A DNA stretch of 64,000 nucleotides from Nitrospirota bacterium (GTDB lineage Bacteria; Nitrospirota; Thermodesulfovibrionia; Thermodesulfovibrionales; Magnetobacteriaceae), in contig JADFXG010000001.1 in the NCBI GenBank assembly GCA_015233895.1, positions 62,001 through 126,000 on the forward strand. Reading direction: 5' to 3'. The notes below the pieces were generated by a model, which was given only the letters and a program-made list of their open reading frames with translations, was not told the origin of the DNA and searched no databases. Made by a program: the position numbers and the translations under genes. Of this stretch, positions 10,205-13,706 are shown in pieces. Positions within the stretch are counted from its first letter, which is position 1; every line of letters begins with the position of its first letter.

Positions 10205-10303
10205 CACTTTTTATGTAATATACATTGATTTGTATTTCCCAATATGATATTATCAACGAGGCGTCAGTCAGCCTGAATGATGAGTGTGAGGGGAGATAAC
10301 ATT

Positions 10304-11140
10304 ATGTATAGTGTTGAAATAAGCCGCAGTAATCCGGGATGTTTTCTGTTTTTAATAGATCAGTCTGGCTCTATGGGTGACCCCTTTGGCGGAAACCCAA
10401 CGCTCTTAAAAAGCCACGGTGTCGCTGATGCTGTTAACAGGCTTCTTTCCAATCTCGTCATTAAATGCTCTAAAGACGACGGCATCAGAAACTATTTTGA
10501 GGTGGGCGTCATTGGCTATGGAAATCCGGATGTCTCCTCTGCTTTTATGGGGACGCTTGCCGGGCGTGAGCTTGTAAAAATAGAGGAAATCGGCAACAAT
10601 CCTCTTAGAATAGAAGAGCGCCTCCAGCAAATATCCGCAGCCGATGGCGAGACAGTTCAAAAGAGCGTAAAATTCCCCGTCTGGATTGAACCCCTCGCCC
10701 GTAATGGCACGCCAATGTGCAAGGCTTTTGACACGGCTCGCTCTATTTTAGAAAGATGGATAGCCTTGAACCTTAATAGCTATCCCCCGATTATTATAAA
10801 TATCACAGACGGCGATGCCACTGATGGTAACCCCATCCCGTATGCACGCGACCTCATGCGCCTTAATACAAATGACGGCAACGTGCTGCTTTTTAACATT
10901 CATATCTCTAATCAACACTCAGTGCCAATTATATATCCCGATAAAGCCCCCACTATCTCAGACCAGTACGCCGCTCTTTTGTTTGAAATATCAAGTCTCC
11001 TGCCTGATACCTTTATTACCGCAGCCCTTAACGACGGCTATGCCGTTAATCAGCAAAGCAGAGGGTTTGGGTTCAACGCTGACCTTATTTCCCTGATTAA
11101 TTTTATTGATATAGGAACCAGAGTCGGAATGTTACGATAG
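10304..11140 (+). CDS. TerY-like von Willebrand factor A domain protein
   Basis: A 278-residue single-domain vWA protein with an intact metal-ion-dependent adhesion site: DQSGS (Asp19, Ser21, Ser23), Thr136 in NGTPM and Asp169 in ITDGD. The ATG at 10304 is chosen for the GGGGAG element 8 nt upstream; an ATG 27 nt earlier is in frame but lacks a site. It is the first gene of a tight three-gene operon followed by a PP2C phosphatase and a protein kinase. That set matches the TerY-P triad described computationally by Anantharaman, Iyer and Aravind, where the vWA protein is the proposed scaffold or phosphorylation target. No ter genes are in the window. Confidence 0.85.
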   Translation: MYSVEISRSNPGCFLFLIDQSGSMGDPFGGNPTLLKSHGVADAVNRLLSNLVIKCSKDDGIRNYFEVGVIGYGNPDVSSAFMGTLAGRELVKIEEIGNNPLRIEERLQQISAADGETVQKSVKFPVWIEPLARNGTPMCKAFDTARSILERWIALNLNSYPPIIINITDGDATDGNPIPYARDLMRLNTNDGNVLLFNIHISNQHSVPIIYPDKAPTISDQYAALLFEISSLLPDTFITAALNDGYAVNQQSRGFGFNADLISLINFIDIGTRVGMLR

Positions 11141-11152
11141 GACATCTCTATT

Positions 11153-11971
11153 ATGAAGTTTTTACCTTTGTCCTCAGTCAAAAAGAGAAATGCTGTTTTT
11201 TTCAATAAATTCATTATGGATTTCCACAACTATTACACCCCAAAAAACGGCAACTCGATGGAGGATTACGAGGATGCCTGCGCTTATAGTGAAGAGAGTC
11301 TGTGTTTTTGTCTGTCCGATGGCGCTACGGAATCTCCGTTTTCTAAAGAGCTGGCAACTTTGCTTGTTAACAACTTTGTACGCCAGCCAATTCCCAATGA
11401 TAATTTAAAACAGGCTCTGCTTCATACTGTCATTCAGTCTCAACCCCTCTGGCACGATATACTGAAGGACAAACAGCTCCCGTGGTATGCAGAGCAAAAA
11501 ATATCCACAGGCTCACATGCCACTTTTACAGGGCTTCGCCTTACCGTACTCCCTGCCAAATCCCTTAAAGACAAACTGAAAAGGGTTGTCAAAATCAAAT
11601 GGGAAACTGTTGGGGTTGGAGATTCTTGTTTTTTTATCGTACGCAATGATGAATTATTTAAAGCCTTTCCTATTGGCAAAGTTGAGGACTTTAATAACAC
11701 GCCTCCGCTTATCTCAAGCATTGAGCCACTGACAGAAGAGAACATTGCTTATGACTCAGGGATTATTCAAAAAGGCGACAAACTGTATCTAATGACAGAT
11801 GCCATAGCGCTGTGGTTTTTAAAGTCCTCCATAAACGGCGATAAACCATGGGATACGCTCCAGAGTATTGACAGCATGGAGACCTTTATCTCCTTTGTTG
11901 ATACACTGAGAGCCGGCAAAGAAATTAAAAATGACGACGTATCCTGCATAATGATGAACTTTAAGCCCTGA
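11153..11971 (+). CDS. PP2C-family serine/threonine phosphatase
   Basis: A 272-residue metal-dependent phosphatase. PP2C landmarks are visible: a Glu-Asp pair in NSMEDYED (about 37-41), LSDGATE with Asp56-Gly57, the GVGDSCFFIV strand (154-163), LMTDAIA with Asp216, and the C-terminal metal motif NDDVS (260-264). The domain is compact and has no membrane segment. It lies 12 nt after the vWA gene and 4 nt before the kinase gene, so the three are co-transcribed. The expected role is to reverse phosphorylation by the downstream kinase, possibly on the vWA protein. Confidence 0.88.
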   Translation: MKFLPLSSVKKRNAVFFNKFIMDFHNYYTPKNGNSMEDYEDACAYSEESLCFCLSDGATESPFSKELATLLVNNFVRQPIPNDNLKQALLHTVIQSQPLWHDILKDKQLPWYAEQKISTGSHATFTGLRLTVLPAKSLKDKLKRVVKIKWETVGVGDSCFFIVRNDELFKAFPIGKVEDFNNTPPLISSIEPLTEENIAYDSGIIQKGDKLYLMTDAIALWFLKSSINGDKPWDTLQSIDSMETFISFVDTLRAGKEIKNDDVSCIMMNFKP

Positions 11972-11975
11972 AATT

Positions 11976-13550
11976 ATGAAGAAATACCCTCTCCCTGACC
12001 AATACAACAAGGCGGTTCAAAACCCCGAACTGTGTTTCACAGACCCAGAGCTAAGAGCCGGCGCTATCGAATTAAACAAACTAGGGCTTCCCTTTGTAAG
12101 ATGCGGTAATTTCTCCTCCGTATATAAAATCATACTGCCGGATAAGGAACTTGCTGTAAAGTGTTTTTTTAATTACTACACGGATATAAAGTACCGTTAC
12201 GAACGCATTTCTGAATACCTTCATACGATCAACTCTCCGTATTTTATAGATTTCCAGTATCAGGAGGATGGAATCAGGGTTAATGGGAAAAACTATCCGC
12301 TGCTTTCTATGGGCTGGATTACCGGCACATCGTTCGACAAATATATAGAGGAGTGTATAAAAACCGGAGACACCGGCAAAATTACCGCTCTCAGAGACTC
12401 CTTTGTTTCCATGTGCAGGCAGTTGAGAAAGGATAAGACTGCTCACGGAGACCTTCAACACGCAAACATCATAGTGACCCCAGGTGGGCTTAAACTCATA
12501 GATTACGACGGTATGTATGTGGCCTCTGTGACACTTACGCAAAGTAACGAGGTAGGGCACCCTAACTACCAGCACCCTAAAAGGACCCGCTTCCACTACA
12601 GTGAGACGATGGATAACTTCAGCGTCATGGTTATTCATACCGCACTAACGGCGTTAATCTATAAACCTGCTCTGTGGGAGAGGTATTTTAATGGCGATAA
12701 CCTGATTTTTTCTGAAAAAGATTTTTCTAACACTAACCAATCCCCGCTGTTTAGGGAACTGCTCTCCTCGGATGTACTTAAAACACAGGTCACGGTGCTT
12801 GCTAAAACCTGTCTGCTGCCTTGTGAAAAATCACCGGATTTTTTATCACTTTTGAATGCTGACGGCTCAATCAACACCGGCCTTCTGCCAGAGGAAATAC
12901 AGATACAACCGGAAAGCGTAAGTCCTGTAAGTACCAGCCATATTCCCTCAGCTTCAGGCGATATGACAATTTGTCCAAACTGCAAAAGCGCTCAAAACGC
13001 AATTGGAATTTTCTGTAACAGTTGCGGCTATTCGCTGATAAACGAAAAACCCCCTCAATTGATAACCATTCAACCCGCTAAGCAGTTTAAATTCCCAAAA
13101 TTTAAAACTATAGCGCTTTATTTTTTGGTGTTTTCTTTAGTCCTGTTTCTGTACGATAACACAAAAACAGGGCCTGTCAAAAAAATTACTTTTGATGATG
13201 TTTTAACCATCGCAGAACAAATTTTTGCTAAGGGTAAAATGGAAAAACTCACAAAGGCTATTGAGGCAGACCCGGTTAATCCCTCCTCATACTATCAAAG
13301 AGCAATGGAGTATGTTAAAGCCGGAAACTACGACAAAGCTATAGAGGATTTTACAAAGGTTTTGAAGTATGAACCTCAAAATGCTAAGGCATACTTTAAT
13401 CGCGGTGTGGCATTCGGCATGCTTGGGTTTCACAAAGAAGCTGTCTCAGACTACATCGAGGCCGCAAAACTTGGCCTTAAACCCGCTCAGGATTTCCTTG
13501 ACTCTAAAAATATCGCATGGAAACCGGACAGCAGTAAAGAGCTAAAATAA
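11976..13550 (+). CDS. Protein kinase with zinc ribbon, membrane helix and TPRs
   Basis: A 524-residue multidomain protein. Residues 1-300 form a eukaryotic-like kinase domain: glycine loop GNFSSVYK (44-51), Lys62 in AVKCF, catalytic HGDLQHAN (157-164) and metal-binding DYD (176-178). A CxxC-x10-CxxC zinc ribbon follows (Cys333, 336, 347, 350), then one membrane helix (about 377-394) and two TPRs (about 437-503). The kinase is predicted cytoplasmic and the TPR part periplasmic. HGD in place of HRD is usual for this group. It is the third gene of the vWA-PP2C-kinase operon. The membrane and TPR extension suggests a sensor or docking role absent from minimal triads. Confidence 0.88.
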   Translation: MKKYPLPDQYNKAVQNPELCFTDPELRAGAIELNKLGLPFVRCGNFSSVYKIILPDKELAVKCFFNYYTDIKYRYERISEYLHTINSPYFIDFQYQEDGIRVNGKNYPLLSMGWITGTSFDKYIEECIKTGDTGKITALRDSFVSMCRQLRKDKTAHGDLQHANIIVTPGGLKLIDYDGMYVASVTLTQSNEVGHPNYQHPKRTRFHYSETMDNFSVMVIHTALTALIYKPALWERYFNGDNLIFSEKDFSNTNQSPLFRELLSSDVLKTQVTVLAKTCLLPCEKSPDFLSLLNADGSINTGLLPEEIQIQPESVSPVSTSHIPSASGDMTICPNCKSAQNAIGIFCNSCGYSLINEKPPQLITIQPAKQFKFPKFKTIALYFLVFSLVLFLYDNTKTGPVKKITFDDVLTIAEQIFAKGKMEKLTKAIEADPVNPSSYYQRAMEYVKAGNYDKAIEDFTKVLKYEPQNAKAYFNRGVAFGMLGFHKEAVSDYIEAAKLGLKPAQDFLDSKNIAWKPDSSKELK

Positions 13551-13677: not shown

Positions 13678-13706
13678 TTGACAACAAATATAAAAAACTA
13701 TATAAT
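13678..13706 (+). promoter_or_regulatory. Consensus sigma70 promoter of the tRNA-tuf-rpo block
   Basis: A perfect TTGACA (13678-13683), an exact 17-nt spacer and a perfect TATAAT (13701-13706) lie about 60 nt upstream of tRNA-Tyr. The upstream region is A/T-rich, consistent with an UP element. This is the match expected for a strong, growth-related transcript covering tRNAs and tuf. Confidence 0.9.

Follow-up and report, generated by a model that had tools for sequence, protein, structure and literature searches.

A TerY-P-type gene triad with a predicted membrane-bound kinase in a Nitrospirota genome

Results

Gene organization of the triad

A stretch of 64,000 nucleotides of contig JADFXG010000001.1 from a Nitrospirota bacterium (Magnetobacteriaceae), hereafter called the window, contains on the + strand at 10304-13550 the genes for a vWA protein, a PP2C-type phosphatase and a Ser/Thr kinase in series. 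Coordinates given without a locus label are positions within this window. The three genes very probably constitute a TerY-P-type triad, and this triad is probably a membrane-tethered phospho-switch. The set has the domain content, the catalytic motifs and the co-linearity of such a triad, and its kinase carries a four-Cys ribbon and a hydrophobic helix that are kept in three genera. We infer a membrane- or envelope-linked input of the switch.

The vWA gene (10304..11140) encodes a TerY-like protein of 278 amino acids with a complete MIDAS-type motif (DQSGS ... T ... D). It is separated by 12 nucleotides from the gene for the PP2C-type Ser/Thr phosphatase of 272 amino acids (11153..11971), which is followed after 4 nucleotides by the gene for the Ser/Thr kinase of 524 amino acids (11976..13550). 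The kinase consists of a kinase domain (approximately residues 1-296), a zinc ribbon, a membrane helix and a TPR part. The gene order and the two gaps, which a first-pass annotation made from the sequence had reported, are confirmed in the open reading frames. The longest open reading frame of the vWA gene opens at 10277, but the start is placed at 10304, because the relatives start with MYSVEISR or MYDAEISR and because AGGGGAG is located ahead of 10304.

The vWA protein matches the PADLOC model TerY over its full length (residues 2-278, E 2e-91), and the phosphatase matches the PP2C model (E 7.1e-32). The kinase matches STK_OB (E 1.2e-82), but only with residues 3-296, corresponding to profile positions 2-297 of 562. 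The window kinase thus lacks the OB-fold part of the model, the match going no further than residue 296. All three proteins match TerY-P models, as expected from the first-pass assignment to this type. A grouping of three open reading frames by chance is ruled out by these E-values together with the linkage of the genes in 10/10 family genomes described below.

The general family databases recognize the proteins less well. Of the Pfam models, VWA_2 matches the vWA protein just under the cut-off (7e-5), nothing significant matches the phosphatase (DUF3223 at 0.16 alone), and Pkinase does not match the window kinase, for which the TPR matches are clear. Pkinase does match relatives of this kinase, for example that of locus L013 at 5.5e-10. 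NCBIfam gives no match to the vWA and PP2C proteins. By reading, DxSxS...T...D is found in the vWA protein, EDA, DGA, GDS, TDA and NDD in the phosphatase, and K62, HGDLQHxN and DYD in the kinase. We take these residues to be those expected of a MIDAS-type vWA protein, an active PP2C enzyme and an active kinase. The vWA motif residues are identical in nine family copies; the tenth, cut by a contig start, does not extend to the motif. The DA, DGATES, (S/T)DA and NDD motifs of the phosphatase are kept in 10/10 family copies, with GDS replaced by GDV in the sister genus g7, and K62, HGDLQHxN and DYD are kept in 8/8 kinases of the family alignment. The structure model of the vWA protein, built from 5 sequences, is of medium confidence (mean pLDDT 67), and vWA/I-domain proteins make up most of its best PDB matches (E from 1.1e-4; for the top 18, the query TM-score is 0.36-0.46).

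The genome of the bacterium comprises 3.7 Mb (65 contigs), and the window kinase is the sole kinase-domain match of this protein in it. A second kinase copy was considered and rejected, as the 24 further whole-protein matches all lie at residue 406 or beyond, namely at the TPR end.

C-terminal tail of the kinase

Past the STK_OB match, the window kinase contains a four-Cys ribbon at residues 333-350 (12972..13025, C-x2-C...C-x2-C pattern), a predicted single membrane helix at residues 376-394 (13101..13157, mean hydropathy 1.76) and a TPR part at approximately residues 423-500 (13242..13475, TPR_1 9e-13). The ribbon pattern is found in 8/8 complete family kinases, which represent three genera of one Nitrospirota family. 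The Pfam ribbon scores are weak and all under the cut-off (DZR 0.018 for the window, Zn_Ribbon_1 5e-5 for L020, DZR 9e-6 for L019). A hydrophobic helix is detected in the tail of seven of these eight kinases at a mean hydropathy of 1.6 and of all eight at 1.5. Thus, the zinc ribbon and the one predicted membrane helix that the first-pass annotation had proposed are retained. The TPR part is expected to lie across the membrane from the kinase domain, if the helix spans it.

The tail is not conserved evenly. Compared with four kinases of the sister genus g7, the window kinase shows identities of 48-51% in the kinase domain, 48-52% in the helix, 35-40% in the ribbon, 6-17% in the linker and 16-18% in the TPR part, which is reduced to approximately one repeat in g7. 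Compared with the kinase of genome G004, the identities are 50% for the kinase domain, 33% for the helix and 30% for both the ribbon and the TPR part. On alignment, the helix and the ribbon are therefore better conserved than the TPR part toward g7. The further proposal of the first-pass annotation, that the module, with a TPR part predicted outside the cytoplasm, may sense an envelope signal, does not fare as well as the ribbon and the helix. A conserved TPR sensor is doubtful: the TPR identity is low toward g7, where approximately one repeat is left, and toward G004 it has a value similar to those of the ribbon and helix, which decides neither way. A link to MamA or the magnetosome was rejected: the MamA model is the top NCBIfam match of the kinase (8.5e-10), but its score of 38.4 bits falls short of the cut-off (200), and the match is confined to the TPR part.

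Distribution and linkage of the triad

The vWA gene is present in 4/4 genomes of the genus, that of the window included, and in 10/19 genomes of the family (3/7 genera; 7/12 among the well-complete genomes). Among 395 genomes drawn evenly from the phylum, it is present in seven, all within this family. In all ten family genomes that carry the vWA gene, the vWA, PP2C and kinase genes adjoin in the same order; this count includes L018, L021 and L024, whose contigs cut one gene short. Related genomes in which the genes are not linked, which would have spoken against the first-pass assignment, were looked for and not found.

The genes around the triad differ from genome to genome. The triad is flanked by greA, tRNA genes (read by eye) and tuf in the window, by a hisH-like gene and genes for tRNA-Tyr/Gly/Thr in G001, and by cNMP-binding and phosphate-propanoyltransferase (PTAC) genes in G003, and a histidine kinase gene is located upstream of it in G004. 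The same-order linkage and the differing flanks indicate that the three genes are retained or relocated together. Carriage by phages was looked for, and no phage record matches the vWA protein at E 1e-5. Two plasmid records, both cyanobacterial, match at this threshold, and the same two recur in three plasmid searches.

The first-pass annotation had stated that no ter genes are present, and this holds in part. In the whole genome, TerD and TerB give 0 matches each, but the statement is inexact, because one TerC-family protein is encoded elsewhere, on a contig other than that of the triad. The TerC family is broad, being found in 9/14 control genomes. Of nine flanking window proteins scanned with PADLOC, none gives a match, and no CnuH/CnuE or McrBC-type genes (CoCoNuT type II/III-A) are found among them. 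Pfam assigns eight flanking window proteins to HPPK, GATase, HD, CBS, CitMHS/ArsB-type transporter, HPP, GreA and EF-Tu. These results indicate that the triad does not lie within a Ter system or a defence island.

Three further features were seen near the triads. A perfect sigma-70 consensus (TTGACA-17-TATAAT) is located at 13678-13706 of the window, between the kinase gene and the tRNA genes. A gene for a CHASE2 sensor with a Ser/Thr kinase (L016:15572-18106) is located approximately 6 kb from the triad in G001. In G004, a type II restriction pair is encoded at L019:13147-15000, approximately 7-9 kb downstream from the triad; PADLOC recognizes the restriction enzyme at 9e-109 and the methyltransferase at 2e-71.

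Triad loci of the sister genus

In g7, a gene for another vWA protein is located directly upstream of the triad at 3/3 mapped loci (L020:7136-9502, L022:2857-5166 and L023:5813-8731), and a protein search places it upstream on a fourth contig, G017, as well. By reading, this protein carries a hydrophobic stretch at its N-terminus and, further on, a single helix, and it also has a long coiled coil. Directly downstream of the g7 triad is a gene for a protein that reads as a multi-helix membrane protein with a C-terminal TPR (L020:12883-14658, L022:8403-10034 and L023:11986-13647). Its copies are 73-77% identical, and it may be akin to the TMTC-type glycosyltransferases. Neither gene adjoins the triad in the genus of the window or in G004. 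The upstream vWA gene was considered as a family-wide partner of the triad and rejected: relatives are present in 17/19 family genomes, that of the window genome being 32% identical and on another contig. Only its adjacency in g7 counts, because its relatives lie elsewhere in most family genomes. These two neighbours are a hint that the triad of g7 may act at the envelope.

The PP2C frames of g7 (L020:10355-11146, L021:3078-3866, L022:6028-6813, L023:9583-10371 and L024:757-1536) contain no ATG, GTG or TTG before the DA motif in 5/5 genomes. In all five, an ATA codon overlaps the stop codon of the vWA gene (ATAA or ATAG). The phosphatase may be made by re-initiation at AUA or be fused to the vWA protein by a -1 frameshift.

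Tails of related kinases

The tails of 43 kinases were compared: eight of the family, E. coli YegI and 34 others. The latter are 31 of 41 matches scoring 80 bits or more in the phyla to which L013 and L015 belong (Armatimonadota and Bacteroidota), L014, and two plasmid loci; nine matches without a locus and L061 (the second kinase of G438, which is without a tail helix) are omitted. At a hydropathy of 1.5, a tail hydrophobic segment is present in 25/34 kinases outside the family and absent from 9/34. The four-Cys ribbon pattern is found in 0/34 of them, the tails of L034 and L064 running off their loci. Three tails served as probes (YegI, L063 and L033): 15/34 kinases match one or more of them, and ten match the YegI tail (best E 2.3e-13). 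None of these probes matches the eight family kinases at E 0.05. The kinase of a Calothrix plasmid (L026) has an OB-type tail, with STK_OB matched to profile position 537 of 562, and the tail of the L014 kinase consists of leucine-rich repeats. The tail of these kinases thus varies, whereas the core is retained. On the Acaryochloris plasmid pREC4, a triad-type kinase (L027:8236-10635) with a predicted helix at approximately residue 409 and a tail of approximately 370 amino acids is preceded by vWA and PP2C genes. In a tree of the kinase domains, the eight family kinases form one clade (100/100), and the placement among the rest is unresolved; YegI is on a very long branch, and several rows, including that of the window, depart in composition from the alignment.

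Discussion

Proposed mechanism

The triad is probably a phospho-switch of the TerY-P type that is anchored at the inner membrane. One helix would hold the kinase at the membrane, with the catalytic domain and the zinc ribbon in the cytoplasm. The kinase would phosphorylate itself and a partner, either the vWA protein or a molecule that this protein recruits by means of its metal site. The phosphorylation state would be reset by the PP2C enzyme. A membrane-proximal stress response is the most likely guess for the output. That an envelope signal is sensed through the TPR part is a weak suggestion.

Several points weigh against this interpretation. The hydropathy scan is crude, as it also flags a segment of the kinase domain in three family copies at 1.6. 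The charges flanking the helix fit a cytoplasmic N-side in 6/8 kinases by net charge, but by Lys+Arg count in only 4/8, with two ties and two reversed. Toward G004, the helix, ribbon and TPR part are kept about equally, and the G004 helix passes the 1.5 cut-off only. The structure model of the kinase, built from 3 sequences, is poor (mean pLDDT 58.5). Its helix at 376-395 is of low confidence (pLDDT blocks 36-57), residues 421-500 reach block pLDDT values of 80-93, and the kinase domain is poor. Foldseek matches of the model are protein kinases and designed TPR proteins, which add little because the kinase-domain model is poor. We infer the kinase and phosphatase activities, the topology and the direction of phosphorylation, and as to activity, the usual catalytic Lys is Arg in the Calothrix and Acaryochloris kinases. 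Nothing in the surroundings of the window triad points to a target. The E. coli yeg proteins, a distant set with a membrane-bound kinase discussed below, are barely similar to the window proteins by BLASTP (vWA 5e-4 over 48 amino acids, kinase 0.69, PP2C 0.44).

Alternative explanations

It is rather unlikely that the triad is a stand-alone anti-phage system like the OB-fold TerY-P systems, in which an infection cue would activate the kinase, a host or phage target would be modified and the infection would be stopped. The three proteins do match the PADLOC TerY-P models, and TerY-P is reported to be active against T7-like phages (PMC7699616; also PMC11090510). The patchy spread of the triad (7/395 sampled genomes of the phylum, 10/19 of the family), its change of site within the genus and the restriction pair downstream of it in G004 are in keeping with a defence role. 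However, the window kinase lacks the OB-fold part found in the defence kinase, all four genus genomes searched retain the triad, the nine scanned flanking proteins of the window are without a PADLOC match, and the vWA protein matches two plasmid records and no phage record.

An improbable alternative is that the ribbon binds nucleic acid. The switch would then relay a DNA or RNA cue from the cytoplasm to the membrane, and the TPR part on the far side would be a dispensable tail. The ribbon is kept at 30-40% identity in other genera as compared with 16-30% for the TPR part, and by reading the YegI-type tails contain a helix-hairpin-helix-like segment. Short zinc ribbons bind proteins too, which counts against this explanation. 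In its favour, the CoCoNuT paper suggests nucleic-acid binding as a possible role for a ribbon that stands in for the OB-fold (PMC11090510). It is highly improbable that the triad takes part in a Ter-based response to metal or tellurite stress, with Ter proteins encoded elsewhere as partners of the switch. TerY-P triads are said to take part in tellurite resistance (PMC11090510, citing Anantharaman 2012), and the genome does contain one gene for a TerC-family protein. However, TerD and TerB are without a match, and the TerC-family gene belongs to a broad family and is located on another contig. The link of TerY-P to ter genes is itself not constant (PMC11090510).

Besides the preferred interpretation as a membrane-tethered phospho-switch, a more specific one is put forward tentatively. 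The triad may represent a distinct transmembrane branch of TerY-P, in which the ribbon and one helix replace the OB tail to give a single-pass, receptor-like kinase. Together with the cytoplasmic vWA protein and, in the sister genus, a second vWA protein of which one domain faces outward, this kinase would form one path across the membrane.

Comparison with known systems

TerY-P triads are known chiefly as predicted stress or anti-phage switches. The window triad and the tail survey suggest a constant kinase-phosphatase-vWA core on which kinase tails can be exchanged as input parts, the tail types being the OB-fold, the YegI-type tail, leucine-rich repeats and the single helix with a zinc ribbon. 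If this is true, the input of the system is testable by swapping tails. The window triad also ties an uncharacterised family to a membrane-bound example with biochemistry, E. coli YegI.

Neither this kind of triad nor the presence in it of a kinase bound to the membrane is new. Published TerY-P triads include forms with zinc-ribbon kinases as well as anti-phage systems with OB-fold kinases (PMC11090510, PMC7699616). The window triad resembles the former in having a vWA protein with a full-length TerY match, a PP2C enzyme and an adjacent kinase with a C-terminal zinc ribbon. It differs from them in that ter genes and PADLOC-listed neighbours are absent from the scanned flanks and in that the kinase extends through a hydrophobic helix into a TPR part. 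It shares with the stand-alone defence systems the same three protein families (kinase domain E 1e-82), but its kinase is without the OB-type tail. E. coli K-12 yegL-pphC-yegI (L062) encodes a vWA protein, a PP2C enzyme and a membrane-bound kinase in one locus. YegI is reported to reside at the membrane and to autophosphorylate, and its phosphate is removed by PphC (PMC13232886). YegI has three hydrophobic segments in the same scan and a different tail, whereas the window kinase has one segment and TPR. Actinobacterial kinases fused to transmembrane helices are encoded beside PP2C and vWA genes (PMC7159879). These genes lie with GAP1-N2 GTPase systems, whereas the only GTPase among the scanned flanking proteins of the window is EF-Tu. 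YegI and these fused kinases count against novelty of a membrane-bound kinase in a TerY-P-like set. Searches of open-licence papers found no text on a kinase of the ribbon-helix-TPR form or on a TerY-P triad of Nitrospirota. Judged by sequence, what is particular to the family of the window is the kinase tail composed of a four-Cys ribbon, one hydrophobic helix and TPR.

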